Origin: an uncultured bacterium
GTDB taxonomy: Bacteria > Verrucomicrobiota > Kiritimatiellia > RFP12 > UBA1067
Length of the DNA stretch: 64,000 bases
Reading direction: 5' to 3'
NCBI GenBank assembly: GCA_902800055.1
Contig: CADCCW010000013.1
Coordinates: 1 to 64,000, forward strand
This document shows, in pieces, positions 41,857 to 64,000 of this stretch; positions within the stretch are counted from its first letter, which is position 1, and each line of letters starts with the position of its first letter. The notes under the pieces were generated by a model. That model was not told where the DNA came from. It made no database searches and was given only the letters and a program-made list of their open reading frames with translations. A program made the position numbers and the translations under genes.

Positions 41857-41859
41857 AAC

Positions 41860-45511: not shown

Positions 45512-45996
45512 GGTTAGGGCAACTTGGTAACACGAACATCGGACTTACTTATGGCCCTAAAGATGTGTGTGATGAAGGGGTTGTTGTATTACGCTCTAGT
45601 AATATTCAGAATGGGAAAATGGATTATGCGGATATAGTAAAAGTATCGTGCTCAATTCCAGAAAGTAAAATGTGCCATGTTGGAGACATTTTGATTTGTG
45701 CAAGAAATGGAAGTAAGCGCTTGGTAGGTAAGGCAGCATTGATAGATCGAGATGGTATGAGTTTTGGTGCTTTTATGGCTATATTTAGAAGCTGTTGTAA
45801 TGCGTATGTCCTTTATGTAATCAATTCGGCTTATTTTAGAAATGCTTTGTTGGGGGATACGGGTACTACGACAATAAATCAAATCACCCAAGATGTGATG
45901 AAGAATATGCTCATCCCTCTCCCGCCCCTTGCCGAGCAGAAGCGCATCGTCGCCAAACTGGAGGAACTCCTGCCGCTATGCGAGCGGCTGAAGTGA
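45262..45996 (+). pseudogene. hsdS: type I specificity subunit, second half (frameshifted hsdS)
   Basis: The frame is open from 45262, but homology begins about 45325: QMAIQGKLVDQRPEEGTGEEL, PFDIPDSWKWVR, target-recognition domain 2 and LPPLAEQKRIVAKLEELLPL before the stop. It is the second half of the same gene, one frame away. The two halves repeat each other at DNA level (for example CTCCCGCCCCTTGCCGAGCA at about 45182 and 45921), so recombination between them is possible. The target-recognition part is AT-rich, as is common for HsdS. Confidence 0.82.
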
Positions 45997-46019
45997 TTGC
46001 TGGGGGAGAATTCTTTTTC

Positions 46020-47534
46020 ATGGAAGAATCGGCAAAAAGAATCTTGATTGATACAAACGTTTTCATCGCACTGGAAGAAGCAGGGCGGGTGTTGGATGAT
46101 GTACATGCCGATTTACTTCGCCTTTGTCGGGAGCTTCATTATGATCTGTATTGTCATCCGGCTCAATTGCGAGACCTTGAGCGAGACAAGGACGATCAGA
46201 GGAAGAAGATTCAGGTCTCACGGTTAAGATCGTATTTGAAGCTGGATTCTCCGCCTGAGCCGTCATCGTTTGACTTAATGAGTCTTGACTGGAAGCAGAA
46301 CAATGACAATGATCGAGTGGATAATCTGCTTTTATTTGCCTTGCAACGCGGTGCTGTTTCATATCTAATCACCGAAGATCAAGGTATGCATCGCAAGGCG
46401 AAGCGCGCCGGAATAGAATCGCTTGTATTTACTGCAGAAGACTTTCTCTCATATCTAAATGTTGAAAAACGGAAATCGGCGGAAGTTGAGGCCGATTACG
46501 TAAGGGTTCAAACTGTCAATTTGTATGGAATTCCGGTAGAGCAGCATTTCTTTGATTCATTGAGGGGCGGATATGGCGGCGCATCGTTTGATTCTTGGTA
46601 TAAGGATAAAGCATCAAAAGGTCGCAAAGCATGGATTGTTGGAGAGAAAGATAATCTTGATGCGTTGTGCATATTCAAACCAGAAGGGAAAGACGAACGC
46701 ATAACTGATGCTGGAGTTAGGTTGCCGGGCAAAGTGTTGAAGTTGTGCACGTTTAAAGTTGCTAAACTTGGGCGCAAACTTGGCGAACGCTTATTGTTTG
46801 TTGCTTTTAACTATGCGATCAAGAATAACTTCGAATTCGTTTATGTCCAAGTTAACGATTCAAGACAGCCTGATCTTGTGACGCTGCTGAAGGATTTCGG
46901 CTTTATTGCACGTGGTCCATATAACAGTGATACAAGTTATGTTAAAGATATGAGATCTAGCGAGGTACTAAAGGACTGGACACCCGATGAGCGGCTTAAG
47001 TACGACATTGAACATTTCCCTCATTTTGACTCTGGCGGCAATGTAAAAAAGATTCTTGTGCCAATTCAACCAACATTTCATGATCGGCTATTCCCTGATT
47101 TGGGGCGGCGAGATTATCTGCCCGGGTTCTATCCAGAAGATGCGAGTGAGGCAAATGCCATCAAGAAAGCATATGTTTGTGGTAGCGGTTACAAGAGACT
47201 TGAAAAAGGCGACTTGTTGTTTTTTTATAGATCGCGTGATTGCAGAAGCATATACTGTGTAGGAGTAGTAGAGGCGTTTTTGAGAAGTGATAAAGCGGAT
47301 GAAATCATCCCGTTTGTTGCACGTCGGACTGTGTTTTTTGATGATGAGATTGCGAAGATGACTAATAAGGGCGAGCAGTTGGCAATATTGTTTAGGGTTG
47401 CTCAGTATTTGAAATGTGGGATATCTTGGAGCCAGCTCAAAAAGGCAGGCATGAAAGGCCCGGTACAAACTATACGCACAATTGATGAAACAGTATTTCG
47501 TACGGTAATAAAGCCACTAATCGAGGGAGACTGA
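46020..47534 (+). CDS. PIN domain - GNAT acetyltransferase - PUA-like fusion
   Basis: 504 residues from ATG 46020 (GGGGGAGA upstream). Residues 1-150 are a PIN nuclease domain: LIDTNVF (D11), LERD (E54), RVDNLLL (D101) and LITEDQGM (D120). Residues 170-320 look like a GNAT acetyltransferase: KLGRKLGERLLFVAFNYAIK fits the acetyl-CoA loop and helix, then FVYVQVND and LLKDFGF. Residues 385-500 (YKRLEKGDLLFFYRS then YCVGVVEAF) resemble an EVE/ASCH PUA-like fold. The next gene encodes an ASCH protein starting right after the stop. The set is AT-rich and follows a type I R-M operon; an RNA-targeting toxin or defence role is inference. Confidence 0.7.
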   Translation: MEESAKRILIDTNVFIALEEAGRVLDDVHADLLRLCRELHYDLYCHPAQLRDLERDKDDQRKKIQVSRLRSYLKLDSPPEPSSFDLMSLDWKQNNDNDRVDNLLLFALQRGAVSYLITEDQGMHRKAKRAGIESLVFTAEDFLSYLNVEKRKSAEVEADYVRVQTVNLYGIPVEQHFFDSLRGGYGGASFDSWYKDKASKGRKAWIVGEKDNLDALCIFKPEGKDERITDAGVRLPGKVLKLCTFKVAKLGRKLGERLLFVAFNYAIKNNFEFVYVQVNDSRQPDLVTLLKDFGFIARGPYNSDTSYVKDMRSSEVLKDWTPDERLKYDIEHFPHFDSGGNVKKILVPIQPTFHDRLFPDLGRRDYLPGFYPEDASEANAIKKAYVCGSGYKRLEKGDLLFFYRSRDCRSIYCVGVVEAFLRSDKADEIIPFVARRTVFFDDEIAKMTNKGEQLAILFRVAQYLKCGISWSQLKKAGMKGPVQTIRTIDETVFRTVIKPLIEGD

Positions 47535-47984
47535 ATGATTTTACTGTCAATCCATCCTGAATATGTTGATAAGATACTTTCAAAGAAGAAACGCTTTGAA
47601 TTCAGAAAAATTGCACCGAAGAATTTCTCGAAAGATCTTCGCATTGCGATTTACTCGACAAGACCGGTTTGCAGAATCGTTGCCTTTGTAGATGTTTGCA
47701 AGATTCATACTGGTACACCATATACGCTGTGGCAGCACGCCTCAAAGGGTGCTGGGATCGATAAGCGGTCGTATGAGAACTACTTCAAAGGATGCAAGGG
47801 GGCGGTTGCCTTTGAAATTTCTGGAGTATATGAATTGGTTAAGCCGTTGACACTTAAGGGTGCTGGCTATAATTCTAATGCGCCTCAATCGTTTAGCTAT
47901 CTTCGTCCGAATCAAATCGACAAGATTATTTCTGCATGGAAAAGGAAAGGAAGGCACTATGCAAAAAAAGCCAAAGTTTTTTAA
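47535..47984 (+). CDS. ASCH-domain protein
   Basis: 149 residues. MILLSIHPEYVDKILSKKKR and FEFRKI at the start, IYSTRPVCRIVAFVDV in the middle and GAVAFEISGVYEL are typical of the ASCH (PUA-like) fold, which binds RNA or modified nucleic acid. It begins at the base after the stop of the PIN-GNAT gene and overlaps the GIY-YIG gene by 26 nt. It may be the partner or antitoxin of its upstream neighbour, which also seems to end in a PUA-like domain. Confidence 0.8.
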   Translation: MILLSIHPEYVDKILSKKKRFEFRKIAPKNFSKDLRIAIYSTRPVCRIVAFVDVCKIHTGTPYTLWQHASKGAGIDKRSYENYFKGCKGAVAFEISGVYELVKPLTLKGAGYNSNAPQSFSYLRPNQIDKIISAWKRKGRHYAKKAKVF

Positions 47985-48840
47985 GTTCAGTTTCCCGAAC
48001 GGGGATCCGAAGGGGATTGCCAGGTGTGCGTATGACAAGGCAGCAATAGTTGCTTACCGTATTCCACGCGACAGGATTAAGGAAATCAAGGAGCTTGAAG
48101 GAAGCTCGCATGATGATCTGCAAAATCCCGGCATCTACATGCTAATCGGTAAGCCAACGGCTAATGGGATTCCGCTTTATGTTGGACAGGCGGCACCGAG
48201 GAAATGCGGCGATCCCATTTACAACCGATTGTCGGAACACGACAGAACCGAGAAGCGCACACGGGATTGGTGGACGACGGCTTTTGTTTTTATTGACGCG
48301 ACCAATTCAAGGCGCATCGACGAGACAGGATTAAAGTATCTTGAAAATGCACTGTATGTAAGCGCCAAGGATAACCCTGCGCTAGATTTGCGTAACGGCA
48401 ACGAGCCGCCTGGCGGCTCTCCGGATGAAAGCGTAATGTCTGTTCTTGACGATATATACGAGGGCATTAATTTATGTGCAAAAGTATTTGGCTTTAGCGG
48501 GGAGGTGGAGATTAGTCAAGAGACGACCATGGAAGGTATGACTTTTCATGGACGAACCAAAAGCGGCGAGGCAAATTTGATTTGGGATGGACGGGGGCAG
48601 TATACACTGCTGGCAGGTAGCATGATTCGCACCGAGAAAGAGGCGACGACACTGCTTAAAGGCGATGTGAAATTCAGGCGTGAAAATGCTGGATTGTTTA
48701 TGCCGGACGGCAAGCTCAAGCGAAATCTCGTGTTTAAGTCTTCGTCTGCTGCGGCTAAGTTCGTGTGCGGCTTCTCCGTCGCTGGCCCTGCCTTTTGGAA
48801 GAATGAGAATGGCATAAAACTGAAAGATGTTATTGCATAG
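47959..48840 (+). CDS. GIY-YIG nuclease-like protein with DUF4357
   Basis: 293 residues from ATG 47959 (AGGAAAGGAAGG upstream). PGIYMLIGKPTANGIPLYVGQ is the GIY-YIG pair, with R and EH downstream (NRLSEHDRT). The C-terminal 60 residues (GDVKFRRENAGLFMPDGKL and FKSSSAAAKFVCG) match DUF4357, which is often joined to this nuclease near restriction systems. It overlaps the ASCH gene and probably is co-translated. A hairpin (CACAGCA/TGCTGTG, 48844-48867) follows its stop. Confidence 0.85.
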   Translation: MQKKPKFFKFSFPNGDPKGIARCAYDKAAIVAYRIPRDRIKEIKELEGSSHDDLQNPGIYMLIGKPTANGIPLYVGQAAPRKCGDPIYNRLSEHDRTEKRTRDWWTTAFVFIDATNSRRIDETGLKYLENALYVSAKDNPALDLRNGNEPPGGSPDESVMSVLDDIYEGINLCAKVFGFSGEVEISQETTMEGMTFHGRTKSGEANLIWDGRGQYTLLAGSMIRTEKEATTLLKGDVKFRRENAGLFMPDGKLKRNLVFKSSSAAAKFVCGFSVAGPAFWKNENGIKLKDVIA

Positions 48841-48921
48841 TGGCACAGCATAGTTTTTACTGCTGTGTCGTATCAAAAGGCTGATTGACTTCGTTGGGTC
48901 ATAATTGTGAGGAAGCACATC

Positions 48922-50016
48922 ATGAGTAAAAAGAAGAAGTCTGTCAAAGTAGGGAAGGATAGCAAAGCCAGACAATTGCCTTGGTGGCGTCGTAATTTGA
49001 AGTTCTTGATTACGACGGCTGTAGCATTGATTGCGAGTGGCTGGAGTATTCGTTTTTTTACGATTAAAATTACTGGCGGCTCAACCGTGTGCCAAATTGG
49101 AGGTGCAAATACATACATTGAAAACATGTCTAGTATGGCAATTGAAAATCTTGATACTAATGTAGTTTATAATATCTTTCACGGCCTGTTCAAGAAGGAA
49201 ATTTCAAAATCTGAACATGGGGATGACGATCCTATTCAATTTATCACGCAAGTATTAAGTGGTGAAGAAGAAAGATTCGATTACGCGAATCCGACAAATC
49301 AATATGGGATGGCTCTTTTTTACATCAATGGGATAGGTACAAGAGTTGACTATGAAAAAGCTGTTAAATGGATGACTTTGGCTAGTGAGCAGAATCTTAA
49401 TTGCGCGCAACATGCTTTGGCAATTATGTATGACCATGGCTTGGGTGTGAATAAAGATGAAGTAATGGCGACGAAGTTATATATACAAGCGGCTGAAAAT
49501 GACTATCTTGCAGCTATGCATAATGTGGGGGTCCGATATTTAATAGGGCAGGGGGTTGGCCGTGATTACCAAAAAGCGTTTGAATATTTGAATAGGGCCT
49601 ATCAACGTGGCTTTATTCCATCCTGTGGAGTTATTGGAGACATGTACCTAAGAGGAGATGGCGTTGAAAAAGATGGATTGCGTGGATTTATAATGATACA
49701 AGTTGCAGCTGATAAATTCAATTCTCCTTTGGCCCAGCATTTACTTGCACGGATGTATCTAGATGGTGAAGATGTTGGGCAAGATGTGGAGAAAGGCATG
49801 TCGTATATGCGTAAAGCTGCGGATCAAGGCTATCCAACCGCGCAATATGATTTGTCACTGCTATACAAGGAGGGCAGATTTGTCTCAAAAAGTGATGCTC
49901 TGTCACTTATGTGGTTGCAAAGGGCGGAGGCATCTGCTCAAAATCGTATCTTAAAGGTCGATATTCATTTTTCAGGTGAGCAGATGGGGACAGTCCCCAG
50001 GTTGTTGCCGAGGTAA
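48922..50016 (+). CDS. membrane-anchored Sel1-repeat protein, 3' end replaced by a repeat
   Basis: 364 residues from ATG 48922 (GAGGAAG upstream); GTG 48907 is an alternative. A basic N-terminus and one membrane helix (FLITTAVALIASGWSI) are followed by five or six Sel1/TPR-like repeats (YGMALFYINGIGTRVDYEKA, AQHALAIMYDHGLGVNKDE, and so on). From 49978 the sequence is the 99-bp repeat that also precedes the gene at 58577, so the last 12 residues (QMGTVPRLLPR and stop) are repeat-derived. AT-rich like its upstream neighbours. Sel1 proteins act as scaffolds and occur in some defence loci. Confidence 0.78.
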   Translation: MSKKKKSVKVGKDSKARQLPWWRRNLKFLITTAVALIASGWSIRFFTIKITGGSTVCQIGGANTYIENMSSMAIENLDTNVVYNIFHGLFKKEISKSEHGDDDPIQFITQVLSGEEERFDYANPTNQYGMALFYINGIGTRVDYEKAVKWMTLASEQNLNCAQHALAIMYDHGLGVNKDEVMATKLYIQAAENDYLAAMHNVGVRYLIGQGVGRDYQKAFEYLNRAYQRGFIPSCGVIGDMYLRGDGVEKDGLRGFIMIQVAADKFNSPLAQHLLARMYLDGEDVGQDVEKGMSYMRKAADQGYPTAQYDLSLLYKEGRFVSKSDALSLMWLQRAEASAQNRILKVDIHFSGEQMGTVPRLLPR

Positions 50017-50076
50017 CTGATAATTTTAACACTAACAAGGAAGAAAATGCAATGAATGGTTCAATAGTCAAGAAGT
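49978..50076 (+). repeat. 99-bp 5' repeat of the surface genes, copy A
   Basis: Identical over 99 bases to 58503-58601. It contains the palindrome GGGGACAGTCCCC, a leader, AAGGAAG and the first eight codons MNGSIVKK. Here no promoter is visible directly upstream, because the Sel1 gene runs into it. Confidence 0.85.
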
Positions 50077-53000
50077 TGCTGCGCGCTCGCCGCGCAGGCC
50101 GATGACCTGTTCTGGTACGGCGCCGCCGGCGACGGCCTCTGGAACAACCCGGCGAACTGGTCCACGACCGAGGCGAGCTATACCGCTTCGACGGCATACC
50201 CTAACGACGCCACGCAGTACTCCGTCCACCTCTACACACACCTTGTCGCTGACCACGCCGTCTCGATCACGATTCCGGCTGGCTGCACCGACGCCGCCTG
50301 CCTGCGCATCCGCGTGAAGGACGATTCCGCTCCGGGCACCGTCGAGATCGTCGGCGCAGGTTCCTCGCGCGTTCCGCTCAAGTTTCCGGCATATCCCAAC
50401 AGCAACTACAACGGCGGCTTCGTGCGCACCGCGTTCGCCTATCCGGTCAAGATAACCTGCCGCAACATCCATTTCAGCGACTGGCTCTACTTCAACTGGA
50501 GCAACAAGGATGCCCCGAGCTACTGGACCGACACGGTCGCGAACGGCGACGGCTTCGCCCTCTACAACTGCTGCTACACGAATTATCCCACCGCCACGCA
50601 CGCGCAGATCAATCCGCCTGGCGGCGCCAACGCGACCTGCACGATTGTCGATTCCACGATTGTCCTTCGCTATTTCGTGCGCGCGAATCCGAATGGCACG
50701 CTGACGATCGCCGTCACCAACTCGACGTTATCCGTCTCCGAGCGGATGCGCATCGACGGACCGAACACGACGTTCGACTTTGTCGGCTCCACGCTCAAGA
50801 TCGGTGCGGAAGCATCGTCTGATCCGAAGCTGCTCTTCGGGGACCGGACGGACGATGCCGCGCACCGCGACATCCACGCCGGCATGAAGATCCGCTTCAA
50901 GGATTCGACGATCGACTTCACCGAGCTCGGCGCGTCGTCGTCGTGCGCCATCTACACGCGGGCGTCCGGGCGTGAACTTGTCTTCGACAACGCCGAAATC
51001 AAGGGCGACCTCTACGCGATTCAGTTGCCGGACGTGGATAGCGTCACGCGGGTCAAGGATACGTCTCTCCACTTCAAACGCAGCAACGCCTACGCCACAT
51101 ACGGGATATTCTACCTCGACAACGGCGAATGGGTGATGGACACCGGGCACATTGAATTGTCAGGCGGCATGGCGCATTTCATCTTCAGCGGGGCGGCGCC
51201 CTGTCTCGATCCTGGTTGGATGGACTACAAGTCGAATACGCCGCCCCCTGTGTTCGACTTCATCGTTCCGGCCGGCGGCTATAAACAGGCGCCGATTTCC
51301 CTGCGCTACAGTACCGATGGCCAAGACAAGGGAATCTTCGGCACCATTCCGAATGCGGCGCCAAATCAGGGAACGATCAACGTGCTGCCAGAGAGCGCGG
51401 CGGCGAAAACCGCCGGAACGACCATCTGCCCGCTCGTCTATGCAAAGGACACCAAGGCAAGGGTCCACCTCGGCCGCGGCGTCCCGACGACGCTCCCGAA
51501 CGAAAAGTCGTCCTTCCTCTATACGACCAACGGCACGTGGGATTACGATGCGGTCGCGTCGAAAACCGAATCTGACTGGATGCAGTGGGACGGCACGGCT
51601 GGCGTTATGGGGCTTGCCGTGAAGATCGTCGGCTCCGCTGTCCACCGGTCTGGCAGCGCGTCCATTACCCCAGTTCCGGGGTACGAAATGCTGGAGTATC
51701 TCGAGTCCTCCGGGACGCAGTACATCGACACCGGCGTCGTGTATGCGAACGACACGAAGCTTACGCAGCGCTTCTGCGTCGTCGATTTCGCCGGCGCGCA
51801 AATGCAGATGGGTGCGCTTGATCGTATCGCCAACGTTTGGCACCGTTTTCACTGGGGAGTCGCCGGCGAGTCCACCCTCAGGTATATCAAGTGGATTGGG
51901 CTTGGTAATGCAGGCCAGACAACTCTTCCCGCTGGAGCCGACGGCTGGGTTGATGTGTCGATTGACGCCAGCGACCAGTCCTACACGGAAGACGGCCACA
52001 GCACAATCGCCATATTCGCGCGAAACGAAAGCGGCACGTTCACGTGCGGAAAGTTCCGCGTTGGGATAACGCGCATCTGGAAGGGAACTGATCTCGTGCG
52101 ATTGCTTGTCCCTGCGCGGCGTCTGTCGGACAACGCCCTCGGCCTGTACGACTACTGCGAGCCGAAATTCTATGAGAATGGTGGATCTGGTGAATTCGCG
52201 GCCGGACCGGCCATGAAGTATCTTGTGGTTGCCAAGGCAATTCCCGATTCGCTCCAGTCCATCGACTCGCCCGTCGAGGCTTATTGCCCGTTGCCGGTTG
52301 TCAAAGAAGAATTTACGGGCAGGACATTGACGAAGGATGTGGACTATACCGTCGCCTGGATGAACAACACGCGCTTCGGCGAAGGGACGTGCACGGTGTC
52401 CGGCGCGGGCGACTATGCCACGGCCACACCGGGCTCGGCGACTTTTTTAATAGTGCCGCAGGCGAAGCTGCCCAAGGGGTTCCGGCGGCTCCTTTACCTT
52501 GAGGCAACGGGGACGGTGCATTACGTTGATACGGACATCCATCCCACCGCGAACACGCGCATAACGGCTGTAGCGCAGACAACGGTGAAGAATGCCAACA
52601 CATATCTTGTCGGCATCCTCGATACTCCCCAATGGCGTCGTTTCCACCTTGGGGCCAAGTGGATGACAAATCAAAAATTTTATCTCGCCGGTGGCGTCGG
52701 CGGAAACGAGACCCAATACACAAACGATGATAGGTTGCTGATCGATGCCGGCTGGAACAAGCTGACAATGGATGCCGCCAACAAAGTCCTTTCGGTCAAC
52801 GACGGCACGACATACGCGCTTGGGACTTCCGGCATCTTGCCGACGGAAAGTACGCTCCGCATCTTTGGCCGCGCCAGCAACAGTGAGTCTCACAACGTCG
52901 GCAATCCGGTGCGTATCGCGGATGTGGCGATCTACGAAAGCGGCGAGAAGACGCACGAGTACATCCCCTGTCGGCGGGAGAGCGACGGCGTTCTTGGGCT

Positions 53001-53118
53001 TTACGATGTCGTCGGCAAGCAGTTCCTTGTCAACAGCGGCAGCGCCCAGGGCGGCTTCCTCGCCGGTCCGGAGCTGAAGGACGACTGGGTTAGCGGCTTC
53101 ATCTATATCGTGCGCTGA
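50052..53118 (+). pseudogene. large secreted LamG-like surface protein, frameshifted in the signal peptide
   Basis: ATG 50052 gives MNGSIVKKLL and a stop 50 nt later. One frame over, from about 50083, the sequence reads ALAAQADDLFWYGAAGDGLW and is open to 53118. So a signal peptide has been broken by an indel, with part of its hydrophobic core lost. The body of about 1,000 residues has a beta-helix-like first half, then two LamG-like modules (LEYLESSGTQYIDTG and LLYLEATGTVHYVDTD) each ending in a block like GLYDxxxxxF, separated by an Ig-like stretch. The C-terminus is SGFIYIVR. As it stands it is unlikely to be exported. Confidence 0.7.
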
Positions 53119-53245
53119 CGCAGCCGCTGCGCAGTCTCGGCGGATAGGGTCAAAAGGGTCGGACTCTTCTGTATATGTTTCTACTGTATAAGCTTGTCTT
53201 TGTGCGTGGGTAAGTAACGCGGGCGACCGCGGCGGTTTGCGCGGC
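53092..53245 (+). repeat. 3' repeat of the surface genes, copy A
   Basis: 154 bp, differing from 60490-60642 at only two places. It contains the end of the coding region (SGFIYIVR and stop), an imperfect AAGGGTCGGACTCTT palindrome, the direct repeat CTGTATATG/CTGTATAAG-like and a GCGGCGGTTTGCGCGGC segment. Confidence 0.85.
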
Positions 53246-53334
53246 GGATTGAATTTCGTCCGCGCCACCTTGCATTTGACTGCATAAAGGGAGATGTGAT
53301 ATACTGCACTTAAATTCTAACAAAGGAACATTTC

Positions 53335-53835
53335 ATGGCAACTTCACGAAATCATCTCGGCCTTCTGGTCGCCGTCTTACTTCTCTGCTGCGCGTCGGCC
53401 GCTAATGCCGCGGCAGATTGGACAGTCGGCCCGGTGACTGACTGGACTGCCAATCCGAGCAATCTCCTGTACACCGCGACAATTAGCTCGTCGTCGTTCG
53501 CCAGGTTGGCCGACGGCAAGCTTGAGGCATTCGCCCAAACAGGAAACAATTCAGTCCTCTCGTGGACGCTCCCTCGCGCGGGCACCGTCTACGCCGTTAA
53601 TGTGTTCACGAAGTTCTCGGACGCGGGGCGAGACGGCTTTGACATTGCAAAACTCGAGGTGAAGAAATCGGGTTCAAACGACTGGATTGATCTTGGCGCT
53701 CAGGAAGTTGCGTATGCCACCAAATATCTCGACGGCGGTAACATCGCCCATGATGGCCATAGGGGGTCGTTCTACGCGATCGCCTCACTTTTGGCCCCCA
53801 CCAAGACAACGATGGATCCTGGTATGGTGAAATAG
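53335..53835 (+). pseudogene. secreted BspA-like protein, fragment 1
   Basis: A GATATACTGCAC promoter (about 53299) and AAAGGAAC lead to ATG 53335. A good signal peptide (LLVAVLLLCCASAANA) is followed by a discoidin-like segment (ADWTVGPVTDWTAN). The frame stops at GMVK, but another frame already carries sense from about 53811: DGSWYGEIELVGYTDAGWSL. A frameshift at about 53770-53812, possibly in the C5 tract at 53795, separates this from the next fragment. Confidence 0.65.
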
Positions 53836-54524
53836 AACTTGTTGGCTATACTGACGCTGGGTGGAGTCTCTCTGTGACTCAACCGGCTTCGCTACTCGGT
53901 TCTGTGGTGATTTCGCCGTCTTCGCCGGACGGCTACTACGCACCTGGCACAGTGGTCACGCTTTCCATCGACAAGACGAATGACGTCGAATTCATCAAGT
54001 GGACTGGCGACGTTCCCGAAGCCGACATTGCCACTACGCCACTTACCCTTACAATAGATCGTTCCAGAAAGGTCTCGTTAGTCTTGAAGGCGCCATATTT
54101 CGTGGTAGATGGCTCCTACATCACAGATGGATGGCAGAAATATAGCATGACTCGTTCCGGCAGCGAGATTAGCATCACCGGATGCTCTTCCGTGGGCAGC
54201 AATAGCGTCATGGACGCTTCGCTGCCGGTGAAGGGCGGATATTCGATCGTCTCAATCGGTGGATGCACGGGATCCGGCGCGAAAACACTTCTGCTTCCCG
54301 AGACCATAAAAACTCTCGCACATCGCGCATTCGTCAACACCCCGCTAACAAGCGTATCTCCTATGTTTCCCGATTCGCTTACCACCTTCGGCGGCGGATG
54401 CTTCGCCGACGCCAGCAACATTCGGGGGAATGTCCGCCTCGGCTTTGGAACCGACTCGGGCGGAGCGCCGCTTCCGATTACGTTCGGGATTCATGACACC
54501 ACCTCTGCCGTGGCCCCGGCGTGA
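53814..54524 (+). pseudogene. secreted BspA-like protein, fragment 2
   Basis: Sense begins about 53811 and reaches TGA at 54522-54524. It contains an InlB-like repeat (SPDGYYAPGTVVTLSIDKTND, WTGDVP, and VSLVLKAPYF), then leucine-rich LRR_5/BspA-type strands (KTLLLPETIKTLAHRAF). It ends TSAVAPA and stop; adding one G in CCCCGG near 54515 would continue APGVTSIPSYTFRNC into the next fragment. Confidence 0.65.
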
Positions 54525-54964
54525 CGTCGATTCCGTCTTACACCTTCCGCAACTGCTCCATCGTGACCAACCTTTCGCTTGGCGCCAACTTGTCCTCCCT
54601 TAAGGCGAATGCGTTTGAGCAGCTCGGCAAAAGCGCCAATGCGAGCGTCGTGTTCGCGGGCGACAAGCCGACGCTTGAGGCCTCGGCATTTTCGGCTACG
54701 ACTCCCGCCAAGGTTCGCTTCCTCGTTCCATGGAATGGCGGTAGCAAATACCCAGCGTGGGCGGCGTTCCTGACCGACACAGCCAAGGTGACGCCGTGGG
54801 CGGATCTTTCGGCAGCGGACAAGGAAACCTACGAGGCCAACTTCCCTGGCAAGATGGCGACCCACAATCCATACGGTAAGGTAATCTCCTCTGAAGATGG
54901 TTTTCCTGCCGGTTCGTGGATCTGCATCAAGAAAGCGCCCGGCGCAGTGTACTACCTGCGATAG
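54521..54964 (+). pseudogene. secreted BspA-like protein, fragment 3
   Basis: The frame continues the LRR_5 strands (TSIPSYTFRNCSIVTNLSLG), then a hydrophilic C-terminal part ending in SWICIKKAPGAVYYLR. The last residues, GAVYYLR, resemble the GFIYIVR tail of the neighbouring surface proteins. Fragments 1-3 were evidently one gene of about 540 codons (53335-54964). Confidence 0.65.
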
Positions 54965-55025
54965 CGCGGCGGTTTTGCCGCGGCAGAGGGCTGATGCCGA
55001 TTTTGCGGCGCGTTGCTTTTTGGAA

Positions 55026-55070
55026 CAAAAGGGTCGGACCCTTCTGTATATGTTTTACTGTATATGCTTG
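55026..55070 (+). repeat. 45-bp palindromic repeat (REP/MITE-like)
   Basis: Begins with the perfect palindrome AAGGGTC-G-GACCCTT and ends with a direct repeat CTGTATATG-TTTTA-CTGTATATG. Other copies: 55542-55584 (reverse), 58369-58413, and within the 3' repeats at about 53152-53198 and 60548-60592. No transposase is in the window; mobilisation in trans by a REP-associated transposase is inference. Confidence 0.75.
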
Positions 55071-55135
55071 GATGAATGTTACTGGACTCCGCGGCACCTT
55101 GCGCGGCAGTTTGCGCGGCGGTTTGCGAACGCTCT

Positions 55136-55169
55136 CCTACCGCCGCATTTATATAAATCCGGCGGTAGG
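55136..55169. repeat. 34-bp palindrome
   Basis: CCTACCGCCG and CGGCGGTAGG form 10-bp arms, and the centre ATTTATATAAAT is itself palindromic. It could be a transposable palindrome or a terminator of the upstream surface gene; no T-run follows. Confidence 0.6.
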
Positions 55170-55252
55170 TCAGAAGCAGAAGTGATAATTTAGGTCTGAC
55201 CTATTTTATCATGTTTACAACACCCTCGCGGCAGTTTGCGCGGCACCTGAGA

Positions 55253-55320
55253 GGTTGAAAGGTTGAAAAGTTGAAAGGTTGAAAAGTTGGGCGGAACCGG
55301 TTGAGAAGTTGAGAAGTTGA
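55253..55320 (+). repeat. 8-bp tandem repeat
   Basis: Alternating units of GGTTGAAA and AGTTGAAA (later AGTTGAGA) over 68 bp, broken once by GGCGGAACC. Repeat number could vary by slippage. Confidence 0.75.
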
Positions 55321-55389
55321 CTAACCACCAAACCATTCACTGCCGCGAAAGCCAACACAGAGCGCGGCAGAAATGGTATAATTCACGCG

Positions 55390-55509
55390 ATGAAACCCCA
55401 TGCCAAGTCCGCGCTTGCGCTCGCCCTCGCCATCGTGGGCGGAATTTCGCCCTCGCCATCGTGGGCGGAATTGCGGCTGGCACGCGCTGTGACGCGTCGG
55501 AATGGGTAG
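55390..55509 (+). pseudogene. signal-peptide remnant with 26-bp tandem duplication
   Basis: A TGGTATAATTCACG promoter leads to ATG 55390, giving MKPHAKSALALALAIVGG, a clear signal peptide. The 26 bases 55421-55446 are exactly repeated at 55447-55472, which shifts the frame and stops it at 55509. Without the duplication the frame would read on as GGIAAGTRCDASEWVEN through a reverse palindromic repeat to a stop at 55661. It is probably the 5' relic of another surface gene. Confidence 0.55.
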
Positions 55510-55541
55510 AGAATTCGTCGCAGACCAACCCGCGCCCCGCA

Positions 55542-55584
55542 GCATATACAGTAAAAACATATACAGAAGGGTCTGACCCTTTTG
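55542..55584 (-). repeat. 45-bp palindromic repeat, reverse copy
   Basis: Reverse complement of the element at 55026, with AAGGGTCTGACCCTT as its palindrome and an extra A in the spacer. Confidence 0.7.
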
Positions 55585-55657
55585 TCCCCAGGGCTCTTCA
55601 CCGTGAAAATCACTTGGCTTTTGGGCGCAAGCGCCTGATTTGCGAAAGGAATAAAAG

Positions 55658-58201
55658 ATGAACAAGAAGGCAAAATCCATTTTTGACAGCACGCATGCAT
55701 GGCGCATGGCCGCCTGTTGCCTTTCAGCCGCGTGCGCGGCATTTTCGCCGCGTGCCGCGTTTGCGGTGCCGTTCGACGAAGCGCTGTTCACGCACAAGTC
55801 GACAATCGTCATCTCGGGCTACGCCGGCGAATCGACGCTGAACGACTTCCCGGTGCTCGTCACTCTCGCCGCGAACTCCCCGGCTGGCTTCGACTACGCC
55901 GACTGTGCGGCCGACGGCTCCGACATCCGGTTCGTGGACATGAACGGCGATCTGGCGCCGCACGAAATCGAGAAGTGGAATGCCGAAGGGACTTCCTACA
56001 TCTGGGTCAAGGTGCCACGTCTTTCCGGAACGGCGACGCAGCTCACGCTCTTTTATGGGTCGGATTCCCCAGCTCTGCCCGCCGTGTCGGCGTCGGACGT
56101 CTGGTCGCAGTACGCCGTCGTCATCCACGGCGGCTCATCGCTGACGAACGCCGTCGGGAACGGCCTCGCTGTCGCCGCCGGTTCGGCGAGTGTCATTGGG
56201 AACACGACCAACGGCGTTGTTGGCGGCTGCATTTCTAAAACCACCTACAGCGGGATTGGACTCAATGTCTCCAACCCGTCGCCAAAGCTTTCAGACGTCG
56301 GCCAGTTTTCCGTTTCCGCCTGGTTCAACCGCGATGGCGAGGGCGGCAGAACAGATACGAAATCGCACTATCTTGCCGCCAGTCGTACCGGCTGGGCCAA
56401 CATGGATGGCTTTGCGCTGATCTTCGAGCATAGCGAATACATTTCCGTTTCCTACAAGAATGGCCACAACTGGAGCAGCGGCAATTACCTCCTTGACGAG
56501 CATGCATGGCGTCACATCGCCTTCTCCTACGCCGCCGGGGAAATGGTTACCTCCTACTTTGACGGGAACAAGGACCAGTCTAAGCGGTCTCCAGCCACGC
56601 TCGTAAACACAAACGTCACCTACTGGACGTTCGGGTCGTATGCGAACACGTCCGAGACGGAGGGCTTCCGTGGCGAGATGGACGAAATCCGCGTCTTCAA
56701 CGGCTTTGCTTCCGGCGACTGGATCAAGGCGGAGCATGACACCGCAGCCAATCCCGCCTCGTTCGCGGTGCTTGGTGCAGTGGAGGCGGTTGACGTTGCA
56801 GCGCCGCAGTTTGGCTTGGCCACCGCATCGGACAAGAACGGAACGGTTTCGTTCAACATTGACATCCTGCGCCCTGGACTCGGTGGCGGAGTGCCGACGT
56901 CCGTGTCCATCTTCTACGGAACCGATGGTGAACACTGGACGGAGAAGTCGCTTGGCTCTCGGAACACCGCCGGCAGGCTGGCCGGTTCTGTGTCTGGTTT
57001 CGCGGCCGACACCAAAGTTTACTGGTTCGCTCGTGCCACCGCAACCAGCTCCGGCGATACCAAGATCGCCGAAACGTCAAGGCGGTCGTTAGTCACGAAG
57101 GCATGCGATCCGGCGATGCGCTACAAGAGTTTCACCGCGACCGTCAACTGGGATGGCATACCAGTGGAGAATATTCCTGTCTTGGTGCGGCTTTCCGACG
57201 GGAATCCGGTCGGTTTCATCCATAGAGAAGTCAAGGCATGTGGCTTCGAAGTGCTCGACGAGGACGGATACATGCTTCCCTACGAAATCGACACGTGGGA
57301 TCCCTCCGGCGAATCGTTAATCTGGGTGCTGGTGCGTGACTACCGCGATGGCGCCACGTTCACCGTCCGCTATGGTTCGTCTTTCGCCAACGCACCGTTG
57401 CCGTCAACCGACGTCTGGGCCGGTTACGCAGGCGTCTGGCACCTCAACGACACGAATTCGGCGAGCGCCTACGGCACCTACCCCAACTCGACGGCGGCGG
57501 CTGGAATCGACGGCGAGAAGGCGCAGGCGTCAATCGCCGACGAGGACGGGAAGATCGGCAAGTCGGTCAAGATCTGCAACGCCACCGCGAAAGGTACGGG
57601 CTTCCAATATGGCGGCGTCTTCATGCCCGACTCCGGGGCTGATTCGCCGCTTGATCTCGGCGACACGTTCATGATTTCCGGCTGGTTCAAGCACAAGAAT
57701 CAGAACTACTACTACGACCAGGTGTTCTCGAAGAGGCAGAACTCCGCCAACACCACGGCGCCGACCGGAGCGTTCATGACCCAGATGTATGTTAATGGTG
57801 CCGCAACGACCTTCGGAGTGTTCGGCAACAGCGGTCAAAACACCCAAAAGACGACAACCCTCGCGACGCTTAACAATGTCTGGAGCCGCCTGTCCGTTGT
57901 GTTTGACGGCACTTCCTGTCATGTTTATCAAGATGGTGTCTTGAAGACGACCATGACGGGAATTGCCCCCGTGACGACCAATGATTCGCCCCTTTGCATT
58001 GGTAATGTGCAAAGCGCACGCGGCAACGGACAGGGCGACGCCGCCTGGTGCGGCTGGGTGGACGAGGTGCGCCTTTTGGGCGGCTACCCCGGTCCGACCT
58101 GGCTTAATGCCGAGCATCACGCGATGGCGGACGATTCTGCGCTCGACCTTTCGGAAGTGTCCGAGCACGGGTCGACGGGATTCATCTTCGTCGTCCACTA
58201 A
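55658..58201 (+). CDS. secreted DUF2341/LamG surface protein
   Basis: 847 residues with a signal peptide ending AAFAV (cleavage about residue 36). It has two DUF2341 domains (about 48-125, FPVLVTLAANSPAGFDY; about 495-575, IPVLVRLSDGNPVGF) and two LamG/concanavalin-like domains (about 190-360, FSVSAWFNRDGEG and MDEIRVFNG; about 600-830, FMISGWFKHKNQN and VDEVRLLGG). Such proteins bind or display on glycans. AAAGGAAT precedes the ATG. The C-terminus is STGFIFVVH, like the tail of its neighbours. It is the only large surface gene in this zone with no visible damage. Confidence 0.85.
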   Translation: MNKKAKSIFDSTHAWRMAACCLSAACAAFSPRAAFAVPFDEALFTHKSTIVISGYAGESTLNDFPVLVTLAANSPAGFDYADCAADGSDIRFVDMNGDLAPHEIEKWNAEGTSYIWVKVPRLSGTATQLTLFYGSDSPALPAVSASDVWSQYAVVIHGGSSLTNAVGNGLAVAAGSASVIGNTTNGVVGGCISKTTYSGIGLNVSNPSPKLSDVGQFSVSAWFNRDGEGGRTDTKSHYLAASRTGWANMDGFALIFEHSEYISVSYKNGHNWSSGNYLLDEHAWRHIAFSYAAGEMVTSYFDGNKDQSKRSPATLVNTNVTYWTFGSYANTSETEGFRGEMDEIRVFNGFASGDWIKAEHDTAANPASFAVLGAVEAVDVAAPQFGLATASDKNGTVSFNIDILRPGLGGGVPTSVSIFYGTDGEHWTEKSLGSRNTAGRLAGSVSGFAADTKVYWFARATATSSGDTKIAETSRRSLVTKACDPAMRYKSFTATVNWDGIPVENIPVLVRLSDGNPVGFIHREVKACGFEVLDEDGYMLPYEIDTWDPSGESLIWVLVRDYRDGATFTVRYGSSFANAPLPSTDVWAGYAGVWHLNDTNSASAYGTYPNSTAAAGIDGEKAQASIADEDGKIGKSVKICNATAKGTGFQYGGVFMPDSGADSPLDLGDTFMISGWFKHKNQNYYYDQVFSKRQNSANTTAPTGAFMTQMYVNGAATTFGVFGNSGQNTQKTTTLATLNNVWSRLSVVFDGTSCHVYQDGVLKTTMTGIAPVTTNDSPLCIGNVQSARGNGQGDAAWCGWVDEVRLLGGYPGPTWLNAEHHAMADDSALDLSEVSEHGSTGFIFVVH

Positions 58202-58502
58202 AGGCCGGCGGGGAACCCGTGCTGCAGGGGTCTGCCACCAATGGTGTTTTGTCGCGTCCGACGTCCTCTTGCATCTGGCGGTATATTGTGATACACTACT
58301 TCCCGACCGACCCGTTTGGGTAACTGCTTCGCTTTAGCGAAGACGTGCAACAGACCCCCTGTAAGGAACAAAAGGGTCGGACCCTTCCGTATATGTTTTA
58401 CTATATATGCTTGAATGGAGGAGAACATGAAGTGACAGGTTCCGCGGCAGAATGCGCGGCGATTTGGTATAATACGCGTCAAATGATGGAAGACACTTTT
58501 GG
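58202..58502. other. 301-bp region with promoters, a hairpin and gene-start relics
   Basis: It contains a TGATACACTAC box (about 58281), hairpin CTTCGCT-TT-AGCGAAG (about 58327-58342), a 45-bp palindromic repeat, GGAGGAG with ATGAAGTGA (a start codon followed by one codon and a stop, about 58427), GCGGC 12-mers, and a TTTGGTATAATACGC promoter (58463-58477) followed by ATGATGGAAGACACTTTT, the first codons of a lost gene (MMEDTF). Confidence 0.5.
58369..58413 (+). repeat. 45-bp palindromic repeat
   Basis: AAGGGTCGGACCCTT followed by CCGTATATG-TTTTA-CTATATATG, with two changes from the 55026 copy. Confidence 0.7.
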
Positions 58503-58601
58503 GAGCAGATGGGGACAGTCCCCAGGTTGTTGCCGAGGTAACTGATAATTTTAACACTAACAAGGAAGAAAATGCAATGAATGGTTCAATAGTCAAGAAG
58601 T
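58503..58601 (+). repeat. 99-bp 5' repeat of the surface genes, copy B
   Basis: Identical to 49978-50076. This copy stands 25 nt after a good TATAAT promoter and so probably provides the 5' untranslated region and first codons of an expressed gene. Confidence 0.85.
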
Positions 58602-60610
58602 GCGGCGCATCCGCCGCGCTGGCGGCGAGCACCAATGAATTCGCCGTTATCGACATCATGGAGACGGTGCGGCAGAGCGAAGTCGAGTCGCCGTTTACGG
58701 TGTCGTACACCGGCGCTCATTCGGCCAGCGATAACCTGAGCGCCGTCATGCAGCTCTTCGACGGCGACCTGACTGCGGACAACAACAAGGCAGACTCCGA
58801 AAACGGCCGCGTGCTTTTCGTCTTGTCAAAAGGCGCGACGGTCACGGTGTCCTTCAATCCGGCGGCGTTTGGAAACCGGCCGCTCTTCTTGGGACAATAC
58901 GGCTTTCGCATGGCCAATGTGGCGACGGCCAGCGGGTGGAACATCCCCAACCGTCTTCCTGCTGCGTGGACGGTCAAGGTCAGCGACAAGGAAAACCCGG
59001 CCTCGGACGACGACTGGGTGCTGGTTGACAGCCATTCCGGGTTGACGCATTCCTTCTATGGCCCGGTGAACGGCTGCTACACGGCCGATTTCTCGCTTGA
59101 GCTGCCAGTGGCGTTTCGGCATGTTCGTTTTGCTTTCACGGGATCGACCGGCAACAACGACAACGTCCAGCTTGGCGAAATCTGCATGTCGGGCCTGATA
59201 GGACCCAACGAAGCCGGCCGACGCGACGTCTGCCTGTGCAAGACAAGCCCCGTGTCGCCGAACGCCGATGGCTCGGCGACGGCGAAGGCGTCGATTTTAC
59301 CGGCGGGGGCGGAAGTCGATCCATACGATATTTTCGTCACATACCGCACGGGTGACCACGCCGACACGAACTGGCTGGCGCGTGCCACGCAATTCACTGG
59401 ACTCTACGAAACCACAATCCCCGGTCTTCGGCTTGGAGCCGACTACACGCTCCAGTTCGGCATCGTCGCCACGAACGGGACGGTGGAGCTGGGTGAAGTA
59501 GTTGAGTTTTCAACGCCACTTGACGTCATGCCAGCCGGCTCGTTGCCTGGCGGGTTTGAGGCGGTTGAATACATTGAATCGACGGACACGGGGCACCAGT
59601 ACATTGACTGCGGCTTTGCGCCGAACAGTGTCAGATTGGGCTTCGCCATTGACTTCATCGGCTACAGTTCGTTCCAGAAGGGGGCGTTCCACGACACAGA
59701 CGATCGCGATACCGGCTACGGCGTCTATCTGTCGTCCATCGTCAAGGGGCAGAATGCCATGCTGCTGATCTCGACGAGTACGGGCATGAATGGCACCTTT
59801 CCTACCGGACTGTTCTGGTACAATGGGGCGATGCCTGCCTACAATGCCAAGCTGGTCAGAAACGAGAGGATGCAGATTACGCTTGACGAGAGTACTGGCA
59901 GCAGCAACTATCGCGCGATCTGCGGTGCCACGACCAATATCCAGAACGTGACGCAGGCAACGATTAGCTCCGGGCCAAACGTCTTCGTGTTCGCCGCCGG
60001 CAACGGGCCGGGGAACAATCCGGACCAGTTTGGCGTCATGCGCCTTTACTCCCTCAAGTTCTACAACGACTCCGTATCCACGCGCGAGCTGATACACGAC
60101 TTCGTGCCGGTTCGCAAAATTGCGGACGACACCTATGGGCTCTACGATCTTGTCGCCGGCGTCTGGTGCCCGAACGGCAGCGCGACGCCGTTCCTCGCAG
60201 GTTCTGCGGTTAACATCGGAGGCATTCTGACCATCGACTCCGTGAGTTTCGTCGGCCGGACGCTGACGGTGACGTTGAACCGCAACGGGGCCTCGACTGC
60301 GGAGGCCGATGTCTATGCCGCGTGGGGGGCGGATTACGCCGCGATGGACACGGCAGGCTGGGAGCACACGGCGCGGCTCGGCGCGTTTGCGGAAAACGCC
60401 CAGACGGCGCAGTTCACGACGCCGGCTCTCGCGCGCGACACCGTTTACGTCCGCTTCTACACTATCTCCCCGACCAGCCCGCCAAATCCAGCGGCTTCAT
60501 CTATATCGTGCGCTGACGCAGCCGCTGCGCAGTCTCGGCGGATAGGGTCAAAAGGGTCGGACCCTTCTGTATATGTTTTACTGTATAAGCTTGTCTTTGT
60601 GCGTGGGTAA
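58577..60610 (+). CDS. secreted LamG-like surface protein, probable frameshift at the C-terminus
   Basis: From ATG 58577 (AAGGAAG upstream) the frame gives MNGSIVKKCGASAALAAS, a short and doubtful signal peptide directly after the shared repeat. About 650 residues follow: a discoidin-like region (PLFLGQYGFRMANVATA), a fibronectin-like segment, and a LamG-like module (EYIESTDTGHQYIDCG ... GLYDLVAGVW). Near 60480 the frame probably slips: it runs on through repeat DNA to 60610 (ending KLVFVRG), while the adjacent frame gives the family tail KSSGFIYIVR with a stop at 60516. One missing base in CCCGCCAAATCC would explain this. Confidence 0.72.
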   Translation: MNGSIVKKCGASAALAASTNEFAVIDIMETVRQSEVESPFTVSYTGAHSASDNLSAVMQLFDGDLTADNNKADSENGRVLFVLSKGATVTVSFNPAAFGNRPLFLGQYGFRMANVATASGWNIPNRLPAAWTVKVSDKENPASDDDWVLVDSHSGLTHSFYGPVNGCYTADFSLELPVAFRHVRFAFTGSTGNNDNVQLGEICMSGLIGPNEAGRRDVCLCKTSPVSPNADGSATAKASILPAGAEVDPYDIFVTYRTGDHADTNWLARATQFTGLYETTIPGLRLGADYTLQFGIVATNGTVELGEVVEFSTPLDVMPAGSLPGGFEAVEYIESTDTGHQYIDCGFAPNSVRLGFAIDFIGYSSFQKGAFHDTDDRDTGYGVYLSSIVKGQNAMLLISTSTGMNGTFPTGLFWYNGAMPAYNAKLVRNERMQITLDESTGSSNYRAICGATTNIQNVTQATISSGPNVFVFAAGNGPGNNPDQFGVMRLYSLKFYNDSVSTRELIHDFVPVRKIADDTYGLYDLVAGVWCPNGSATPFLAGSAVNIGGILTIDSVSFVGRTLTVTLNRNGASTAEADVYAAWGADYAAMDTAGWEHTARLGAFAENAQTAQFTTPALARDTVYVRFYTISPTSPPNPAASSISCADAAAAQSRRIGSKGSDPSVYVLLYKLVFVRG

Positions 60611-60642
60611 GTAACGCGGGCGACCGCGGCGGTTTGCGCGGC
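60490..60642 (+). repeat. 3' repeat of the surface genes, copy B
   Basis: 153 bp, nearly identical to 53092-53245 (one substitution and one indel). Includes the SGFIYIVR codons, an intact AAGGGTCGGACCCTT palindrome and GCGGCGGTTTGCGCGGC. Confidence 0.85.
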
Positions 60643-60646
60643 AGTT

Positions 60647-61027
60647 CTAACCCAATGCCTCGGCGGCGGCGAGGACGGCGTTGCGGACGCAGTCCTCGCA
60701 GCTGCAGAGCGGCTTGCCGGTGTCGACGCCCTTGAGCTCGCGGCAGATCGTCGCGCCGCAGAGTTCCCTGAACCGCGGCAGAATTCTGCGCGAGAGCGCC
60801 ATCGTGCCGCTGCCGCCGGTGCGCAGCCCCGCGACCATGACCGCGCCCACGAGCGCGCCGCAGGAGCCCTCCATCGTCCCCATGCCGGAGCCGAACCCGG
60901 CGGCGAGGCTCGTTAGCGTCGCCTCGTCGAGCGATACCGTGTCGGCGAACGCGCGCACGACCGCCTGGCAGCAGTTCATCTCGCGCTTCAGCTTCGCCGC
61001 GTAATCCTGTCTTTCCGCTGTCGTCAT
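60647..61027 (-). CDS. C_GCAxxG_C_C family protein
   Basis: 126 residues from ATG 61027 (ACGGAGG upstream). REMNCCQAVVRAF, GSCGALVGAVMV (the GCAxxG-like core), CGATICRELKG and PLCSCEDCVRNAV carry the conserved cysteines of this small redox or metal-binding family. It is sometimes found with redox enzymes. The promoter TTGGTATAATACGC is on the minus strand about 61050-61063. Function is unknown. Confidence 0.85.
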   Translation of the reverse strand: MTTAERQDYAAKLKREMNCCQAVVRAFADTVSLDEATLTSLAAGFGSGMGTMEGSCGALVGAVMVAGLRTGGSGTMALSRRILPRFRELCGATICRELKGVDTGKPLCSCEDCVRNAVLAAAEALG

Positions 61028-61113
61028 GGTGCCTCCGTTCATTTGCCGCGTATTATACCAAATTTCCGGCGCTGCGCCCCAAGCCCCGCGAATTATGGTA
61101 TACTACACGGCGT

Positions 61114-61725
61114 ATGAAAAGGCTTTTCGTGCTATTGACCCTGGTCGCCGCCGGCGCGGCGTCTGCGGAGCCTGCGCCGCCGGCCGAGTCCGCGACGAAT
61201 GCGCCTGCGGCGGCGGTTGCCGCGACCAACCTGCCGCCGGCGGAGTTGGCGGCCGCTACCAACGCGCCGCCGCGGAAGCCGCTGCGCCCCGCCGTGATCA
61301 CCGCGGCGTCTACGTTCTACGACCGCAAGGAGGGCATCGCCGTCTTCACCGGCAAGGTGCATGTGGACGACGAGCGCTACCAGATCCACGCCGACAAGGC
61401 GTACGTCTCGATCGTCCCCACCAACCAGCTCCGGCGCATCGTCGCCATCGGCCACGTGGCGATGACCAACGAGGCGCGGCGCGCCTACGGCGCGAAGGTT
61501 ACCTACAACCGCCCGACCGGCACGGTGGTGCTCGTCGGCGGCGACGATGGCACGCCGGCGAAGATCGTGGACGAGTCGAAGGGCGCCGGCAAGGAGCAGA
61601 CGGTGGTCGGCTCCAAGATCCGCTTCTGGGTCGACGCCGAGCAGGTGGAGGTGCTCGACGCGTCCATCACCACGCCGACCTCCGGCGCTGGCGACCTCAA
61701 GAAGGCCCTGGGCGGGGACCTGTGA
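61114..61725 (+). CDS. LptA/OstA-like periplasmic protein
   Basis: 203 residues with a signal peptide (LFVLLTLVAAGAASA). An Ala/Pro/Asn-rich linker of about 40 residues is followed by ITAASTFYDRKEGIAVFTGKVHVDDERYQIHADKAYV, the OstA/LptA beta-jellyroll that carries lipopolysaccharide across the periplasm. TATACT ends 9 nt before the ATG, so the leader is very short. Downstream genes are metabolic, so whether it is the main LptA is unclear. Confidence 0.75.
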   Translation: MKRLFVLLTLVAAGAASAEPAPPAESATNAPAAAVAATNLPPAELAAATNAPPRKPLRPAVITAASTFYDRKEGIAVFTGKVHVDDERYQIHADKAYVSIVPTNQLRRIVAIGHVAMTNEARRAYGAKVTYNRPTGTVVLVGGDDGTPAKIVDESKGAGKEQTVVGSKIRFWVDAEQVEVLDASITTPTSGAGDLKKALGGDL

Positions 61726-61772
61726 AACCCGCCGCGCGGCAGCTTTGAACCAAAACAGCAAAGGAAAAGAAA

Positions 61773-62453
61773 ATGGCGCTCAACATCGTAACTGAAATCG
61801 ACGACCGCGTGAAGGTGCGCAACGTGCTCATGTCGGTGTCGGACAAGACCGGCCTCGAGTCCTTCGTCCCGGCGCTCGTCAAGGCCTGCCCCGGCGTGAA
61901 GATCTACTCCACCGGCGGCACCTACACGAAGGTGAAGGAGATCCTCGGCGACAAGGCCGCGGGGACGCTGGTCGCGGTCTCCGACTACACCGGCCAGCCC
62001 GAGATGCAGGGCGGGCTCGTGAAGACGCTCGACTTCAAGATCTACCTTGGGCTCCTCTCCGAGACCTACAACGACGCGCACCAGGCGGACCTGAAGCGGC
62101 TTTCGGCGCTGCCGATCGACATGGTGGTCGTGAACCTCTACCCGTTCCGCGAGACCATCGCCAAGGCCGGCGTCACGCCGGAGATGGCGCGCACGAACAT
62201 CGACATCGGCGGCCCCTGCATGGTGCGCGCGTCGGCGAAGAACTACCTCCGCGTCGCGTCCGTCACCGACCCGCTCGACTACGCCGCCATCGCCCAGGAG
62301 CTCGAGTCGCGCGACGGTACCGTCGGCCTCGACACCCGCTTCAGGCTGATGAAGAAGGCCTTCGCCCACACCGCCGAGTACGACACGGCCATCGCCGGGT
62401 TCTTCGCCTCGCGCACGTGGGAGGAGGTAGCCGCCACCTACAACCGGCGCTGA
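61773..62453 (+). CDS. purH: IMP cyclohydrolase domain of PurH
   Basis: 226 residues. VRNVLMSVSDKTGLESFVPA, IYSTGGTYTKVKEI, VSDYTGQPEMQGGLVKTL, VVVNLYPFRETI and NIDIGGPCMVRASAKN match the MGS-like cyclohydrolase domain of PurH, which closes FAICAR to IMP. The AICAR transformylase domain (about 300 residues in ordinary PurH) is absent, and the next gene overlaps the stop codon, so it was not lost by a nearby frameshift. Another gene must supply that step. Confidence 0.9.
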   Translation: MALNIVTEIDDRVKVRNVLMSVSDKTGLESFVPALVKACPGVKIYSTGGTYTKVKEILGDKAAGTLVAVSDYTGQPEMQGGLVKTLDFKIYLGLLSETYNDAHQADLKRLSALPIDMVVVNLYPFRETIAKAGVTPEMARTNIDIGGPCMVRASAKNYLRVASVTDPLDYAAIAQELESRDGTVGLDTRFRLMKKAFAHTAEYDTAIAGFFASRTWEEVAATYNRR

Positions 62454-63928: not shown

Positions 63929-64000
63929 AGGTCGTCCACCTCGTGCCCGCGATGGAGCAGGGCGGCGTCGAGAGCGTCGTCCGTGACCTCAACCGTGCGC
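63925..64000 (+). CDS. glycosyltransferase (family 4-like), 5' part only
   Basis: ATG 63925 overlaps the preceding stop by 4 nt. The visible 25 residues, MKVVHLVPAMEQGGVESVV and on, match the N-terminus of GT4-type glycosyltransferases (the GGVE/GGAE loop). The rest lies outside the window. Confidence 0.7.
   Translation, partial: MKVVHLVPAMEQGGVESVVRDLNRA

Follow-up and report, generated by a model that had tools for sequence, protein, structure and literature searches.

The DNA analysed here, called the window, comprises the first 64,000 nucleotides of contig CADCCW010000013.1 from an uncultured bacterium of the Kiritimatiellia (RFP12, UBA1067; assembly GCA_902800055.1) and harbours two putative surface-protein genes, termed A and B, which carry the same short start and nearly the same end around unlike bodies. 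We consider it likely that A and B are members of a real family of genes in which a sigma factor is fused to a surface protein, that the copies in the window were damaged in assembly, and that the bodies of such genes were exchanged over evolution. The genome to which the window belongs (G000) consists of 61 contigs with 2.29 Mb and is about 90% complete, and the window contig is its C13. All positions are those of the window and all features lie on its forward strand, except a dispersed element and a tandem duplication in it, for which no strand is assigned.

A preliminary description of this DNA had claimed an identical start, a nearly identical end and different bodies for the two genes, and all of this is borne out. 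The start is an exact direct repeat of 99 bp (49978-50076 and 58503-58601), the ends of about 153 nt (53092-53245 and 60490-60642) share 99% identity and differ by a single substitution and an indel of 1 nt, and the bodies of A and B have no likeness at the DNA level.

A family of fused sigma-surface genes

The 99-bp start represents the end of a linker and the start of a signal peptide of an order-wide gene type. Genes of this type encode in one open reading frame (ORF) an extracytoplasmic function (ECF) sigma factor, a membrane helix, a variable linker, an internal ribosome-binding site with start codon, a signal peptide and a surface body. The start of A (49978-50076) contains the end of the sigma-factor linker (GADGDSPQVVAEVTDNFNTNKEENA), an internal Shine-Dalgarno sequence, the ATG at 50052 and the residues MNGSIVKK of the signal peptide, and in the relatives G012 and G064 this stretch lies within a continuous sigma-transmembrane-linker-surface ORF. 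A leader copy with 98% identity in G012, and more diverged copies at seven other places, all lie inside single uninterrupted frames, in which the linker ends with GDSPQ..TDN.NTN.EENA and is followed by MN..VK, a signal-peptide-like stretch and the surface body. Across G012, G000 and G064 the leader is part of continuous ORFs of 745-1272 aa. G000 itself has five loci of the sigma family (C7, C37, C35, C24 and a related one on C5). Members of the family include L053:11174-13990 (G012 C17), L128:3328-5703 (G064 C35), L037, L036 and L199-L217.

Fusions were counted in six genomes with a model of sigma factor and helix only, which is hence unbiased toward fusions. In total 64 genes reach the helix and 56 of these stay in frame to at least 450 aa; among the eight shorter ones four run off contig ends, and the one on G064 C24 still has the C-terminal motif of the family. 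Up to 19 copies are found per genome. The linkers vary in length and sequence even among close relatives and the frame is kept nevertheless. Independent overlapping genes in a chance frame were considered and are ruled out, because 56 of 64 genes are in frame across linkers of variable length. Since the members come from separate assemblies and from several genera and families, the architecture of the family is no assembly error.

The sigma domain of intact members matches TIGR02937 with 72.8 bits (cut-off 42.9) and Sigma70_r4_2 above the gathering threshold, region 2 being weaker, and it is also supported by Pfam and by matches to solved ECF sigma structures. Intact members have sigma-70 regions 2 and 4 and no region 3, as is typical for ECF sigma factors; this test is not applicable to the window copies. 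A Pfam scan of six fusions found no zinc-finger anti-sigma domain between sigma factor and helix. Right after the sigma factor the helix shows a hydropathy peak of about 2.3 (19-residue window) in 55 ORFs with an in-frame body, and the Ala-rich core of the signal peptide is milder, with a mean hydropathy of 1.6. An internal ATG or GTG follows 253-298 aa after the sigma start in all 24 inspected genes (in G064 it is GTG), nearly all of which have a GGAG/GAGG/AGGA-like site 5-11 nt before it. An AlphaFold model of the 938-aa fusion from G012 reached a mean predicted local distance difference test score (pLDDT) of only 34 and was not used.

Two products could be made from such a gene. The short product from the internal start would be the exported body alone, and the full-length product would tether a sigma factor in the inner membrane and expose this body outside as a sensor. 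In the long product the second hydrophobic stretch would not stop transfer, so that the body would be outside in both cases, and the sigma factor would be released or activated once a ligand is bound. A dual-product gene family of this kind, which provides a tethered sigma factor with surface sensor as well as a free exported surface protein and shuffles its modules among up to about 20 paralogs per genome into a self-sensing repertoire, is a possible reading which we put forward tentatively.

A similar motif of 6-8 residues forms the C-terminus of almost every body, whether the bodies are related or unrelated (G000, G012, G037, G028, G039; in the window at 53115 and 58198). Examples are SGFIYIVR, AGTVYYIL, ATVISLR and GFLVIVK, which are hydrophobic and often end with R, K or H; the motif may serve as a signal for sorting or secretion. 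Another, mostly single-copy fusion (G000:C5:27547-28065, G012:C26, L144, L145, L160) recurs in many genomes of the genus, in which an ECF sigma factor is joined to a domain of about 350 aa with the motif DGSFxGxYGxSAAIPALAGMAFLSKG, which recalls terpene-cyclase-like toroids.

Exchange of bodies between relatives

Studying intact genes of independent assemblies reveals that bodies have been exchanged between lineages. The genes on G012 C17 and G064 C35 share a sigma factor and leader with 99% identity over the first 175 aa (95% at the DNA level over 970 bp), and their last 88 bp are 99% identical. Behind this common sigma module G012 C17 carries body B and G064 C35 carries the C-terminal half of body A. 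The converse is found as well: the body on G000 C24 is 78-89% identical to those on G012 C43 and G064 C76, whereas the sigma modules share just 53%. In eleven pairs with a sigma identity of at least 93% ten keep orthologous bodies and one is swapped; exchange is therefore real but occasional in this sample, and it looks evolutionary. The body exchange between constant ends proposed in the preliminary description is thus real between relatives, but an expressed site with a silent store within one genome does not follow from it.

Body A (50101-53118, 1005 aa) resembles in its N-terminal half (residues 2-511) a separate gene of G040, and its C-terminal half, from about 51648 on, is 80% identical to the body on G064 C35 and 90% identical to a gene of G063 which has another signal peptide and another end. 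As its two halves match separate genes, A is itself composite. Body B (58577-60610) is orthologous to the gene on G012 C17, an intact sigma-surface gene to which it is 92% identical at the DNA level; in B the sigma part is absent. Pfam found no domain in either body.

Damage to the copies in the window

Both copies are defective. The signal peptide of A had been described as broken, and A is frameshifted right after the 99 bp: with the ATG at 50052 as reference, its body lies in frame +1. B had been taken for the working copy, which does not hold. Its likeness to the sigma-gene leader of G012 (58501-58600) extends over exactly 100 bp and stops where 36 bp are lost, so that the signal peptide reads MNGSIVKK|CGASAALAASTNEF, is shorter than in G012 by these 36 bp and has no hydrophobic core. 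A 28-bp deletion at 60461 puts the final codons of B out of frame, and the shared end reads SSISCAD... in place of SGFIYIVR-stop.

In A the shared end (53092-53245) comprises the last codons SGFIYIVR-stop, followed by about 99 bp. The 54 bp of the SGFIYIVR-stop part are also found in G012 and G064, and the following 99 bp or so lie in G012 directly upstream of the counterpart of the gene at 60647. From 60551 on, the end of B (60490-60642) passes without a break into a core region that has 99% identity to G012 C38. The shared end would be the C-terminus of one family gene together with its downstream flank. Counting the copies, as the preliminary description had suggested, yields just two full-length copies of each end in G000. 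For the leader part there are two diverged copies (72-74%) elsewhere, on contigs C37 and C7, and the 45-bp core of the 153-bp end is scattered about 25 times in the genome.

The length of the shared start deserves attention. In 583 kb of G000 the longest exact repeat is 99 bp, exactly this length is reached by three pairs, and one of these pairs is the overlap of the contig ends C13 and C49. A hard ceiling for exact repeats combined with contig-end overlaps of equal length is the trace expected of a de Bruijn assembly with k=100. Because 99 bp is the k-1 ceiling, both the length and the sharp boundaries of the shared start are suspect. The default maximum k of IDBA-UD is 100. The two best-placed relatives are the rumen metagenome-assembled genomes RUG10963 and RUG11534. 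The study of RUG-named rumen genomes reports Illumina short-read assemblies and cites IDBA-UD (PMC6785717).

Several shared blocks end in indels which the relatives do not have. The second internal 99-bp pair (C13:55348-55446 and C11:480-578) lies in the window within a dispersed element of about 0.57 kb (55022-55588), which has 48-nt inverted ends built on AAAGGGTCGGACCCTT and further copies on C11, C16, C20, C38 and in G012. Each member of this pair has a tandem duplication of its own (26 and 53 bp); the two begin at the same base and are absent in five other copies, and the 26-bp duplication of the window (55447-55472) is located at the end of the exact block. An LRR_5-like surface-protein gene between A and B (middle gene 1, 53335-54964) has lost 49 bp (53780/53781) and 55 bp (54510/54511) right after blocks exactly common with contig C5; on C5 in turn these blocks are directly preceded by losses of 124 and 75 bp. 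In G012 this gene is an intact ORF of 585 aa. The core flanks, compared with G012 over 5.7 kb, show length differences of 1 and 12 bp only and no indel of 20 bp or more.

These observations suggest stitching errors at a collapsed repeat around A and B. The repeat around the junction of linker and signal peptide was probably collapsed and re-stitched in the short-read draft. Of the constant 5' module a stub of 99 bp (k-1) would then have remained before two bodies, the sigma part would have been removed, and both signal peptides and the neighbouring gene would have been harmed. The swap of bodies between the constant ends would be a separate process over evolutionary time. The window has the k-1 repeat ceiling, the k-1 overlap of contig ends and the indels at block ends in common with short-read de Bruijn misassemblies, but as the two 153-bp ends differ, assembly error does not account for everything.

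Some points weigh against this explanation. An exact block between paralogs necessarily ends at any indel, and in the gene at 53335 block ends and deletions therefore coincide in part automatically; this does not apply to the deletion in B relative to G012, to the 99-bp ceiling, to the tandem duplications in both copies or to the losses on two sides. The two 153-bp ends differ at two positions, which speaks for a second real copy or a second strain, and the upstream flank of B is unlike that of the G012 sigma gene. Moreover, the misassembly is deduced from the assembled sequence itself, and the fusion and the products of the internal start are known as reading frames only.

Alternative explanations

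The preliminary description had read B as expressed and A as a silent cassette, so that a single strain would swap bodies by recombining within the identical ends. In antigenic variation of the pilin or vls type, silent cassettes with constant ends around variable bodies undergo recombinational exchange. The window resembles these systems because constant ends flank variable bodies, the promoter-like box is found before B only, and exchange of bodies between such ends exists, though only between relatives (G012 C17 and G064 C35). Unlike these systems it has no intact expression locus and no cassette array. Neither A nor B combines a functional start with a functional end, several silent donors would be expected where G000 has two full-length copies per end and no more, the boundaries fall on the k-1 limit of the assembler and on indels, and orthologous bodies are kept in ten of the eleven close sigma pairs. 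We regard this explanation as very improbable.

If the assembly is right, A and B could be genuine decaying copies without their sigma and signal-peptide parts, which acquired common ends by duplication or gene conversion in a repeat-rich region. Two real copies are plausible from the two differing positions in the 153-bp ends, B shows real divergence from G012 (92%, with flanks of 99%), and dispersed repeats are indeed numerous in the region. We nevertheless consider genuine decay unlikely, as two independent stubs would have to stop at the same bases with a length of exactly k-1, a further exact block of 99 bp likewise comes with private duplications, and around the same blocks middle gene 1 is shortened on one side and C5 on the other. 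Rather doubtful is also a mixture of strains, in which A and B would be alternative alleles of one site that the assembler put in tandem. B-type (G012) and A-type (G064) bodies do occur behind one sigma module, a two-base difference of the ends is expected of two strains, and the join of A and middle gene 1 lies inside an 18-bp dispersed repeat. Two points speak against it: G012 and G064 have different flanks around the sigma-body unit, which leaves a single allelic site unsupported, and the contamination of G000 is estimated at 0.83%. A mixture would be compatible with the damage in assembly that we favour, of which it is a more specific version.

The 99-bp block was also considered as a mobile element or repetitive extragenic palindromic (REP) unit, as it contains the palindrome GGGGACAGTCCCC. 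In relatives this palindrome lies within the coding linker (GDSPQ), and the block was therefore not treated as an inserted unit.

Genomic setting and further observations

On G012 C38 a stretch of 1.5 kb, which we read as an exonuclease-like ORF, lies between the counterparts of 37156-39441 and 60551-64000. The window has a segment of about 21 kb there instead, which is absent from G012 at this place and contains the surface genes together with genes for type I restriction-modification, a Fic protein and a Sel1 protein. Matches to A, middle gene 1 and B are found at three different places in relatives, which points to a hot spot of rearrangement, to a contig made chimeric at dispersed repeats, or to the two together. 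The left part of the segment (39442-49977) encodes HsdR, HsdM, Fic, HsdS and a Sel1-repeat protein, the 3' end of whose gene runs into the 99-bp block (49907-50016); its true 3' end was probably lost at the junction. Within the restriction-modification cluster (39490-48840) the Fic gene sits between hsdM and hsdS, and parts of the HsdS region (44488-45996) match repeated stretches in G014, which hints at shuffling of specificity modules.

The preliminary description had placed one intact and one broken surface gene between A and B. Both are present, yet the broken one (middle gene 1) is intact in G012. The intact one (middle gene 2, 55658-58201) encodes a surface protein of 847 aa with a signal peptide, DUF2341 and Laminin_G_3 domains and the C-terminus TGFIFVVH. 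Solo ends of the AAAGGGTCGGACCCTT element are located at 53147, 58365 and 60545, adjoining surface genes.

A strong promoter had been claimed before B and none before A. The promoter-like box (58443-58473) is indeed found before B and not before A, and consists of a CGCGGC repeat and TTTGGTATAAT; it includes a perfect TATAAT (58468-58473), 29 nt upstream of the second copy of the start, but a -35 box is missing and a consensus promoter scan gives no score. The same combination of CGCGGC and TTTGGTATAAT occurs at more than 20 other places in G000. Boxes of the form CGCGGC(n)TTTGGTATAATAC without a -35 hexamer are found at 58443-58473, 39331 and 55363 and before many genes, and this might be a promoter architecture specific for the lineage.

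Relation to known systems

The closest known kind of protein are the fused sigma factors of the ECF52 type. In ECF52 (SCO4117 type, Actinobacteria; PMC5826349) and in ECF48 and ECF53 (PMC8999054) the sigma factor, a transmembrane region and an extracytoplasmic part with a carbohydrate-binding domain are combined in one polypeptide, and proteolytic release of the sigma domain has been proposed for their activation. ECF52 was described as exclusive to Actinobacteria (PMC5826349). The likeness would consist in a sigma factor, a predicted membrane helix and a predicted outside part in one polypeptide. In contrast to ECF52, the six fusions scanned with Pfam have no zinc-finger domain, the bodies are variable with roughly 0.4-1.3 thousand residues and up to 19 paralogs per genome, and an internal Shine-Dalgarno sequence, start and signal peptide are present in the same frame. 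Another comparison is offered by Sigma-I/RsgI of Clostridium, which senses polysaccharides and in which an extracellular domain of the carbohydrate-binding type is tied via one membrane helix to the control of the sigma factor. There the membrane protein is an anti-sigma factor, whereas here the sigma factor itself bears the helix and the surface part.

No description of such sigma-surface fusions was found in the literature on LamG, Verrucomicrobia or Kiritimatiellae. These genes apparently represent a large and undescribed set which links sigma factors to variable surface proteins in gut bacteria. To read the window as antigenic switching is tempting and probably wrong; short-read assemblies limited by k can imitate cassette systems. 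The family of fused sigma-surface genes is worth following in better genomes than G000. Provided that translation follows the fused frame, a cell may perceive the ligands of its own surface proteins and answer them directly in transcription.

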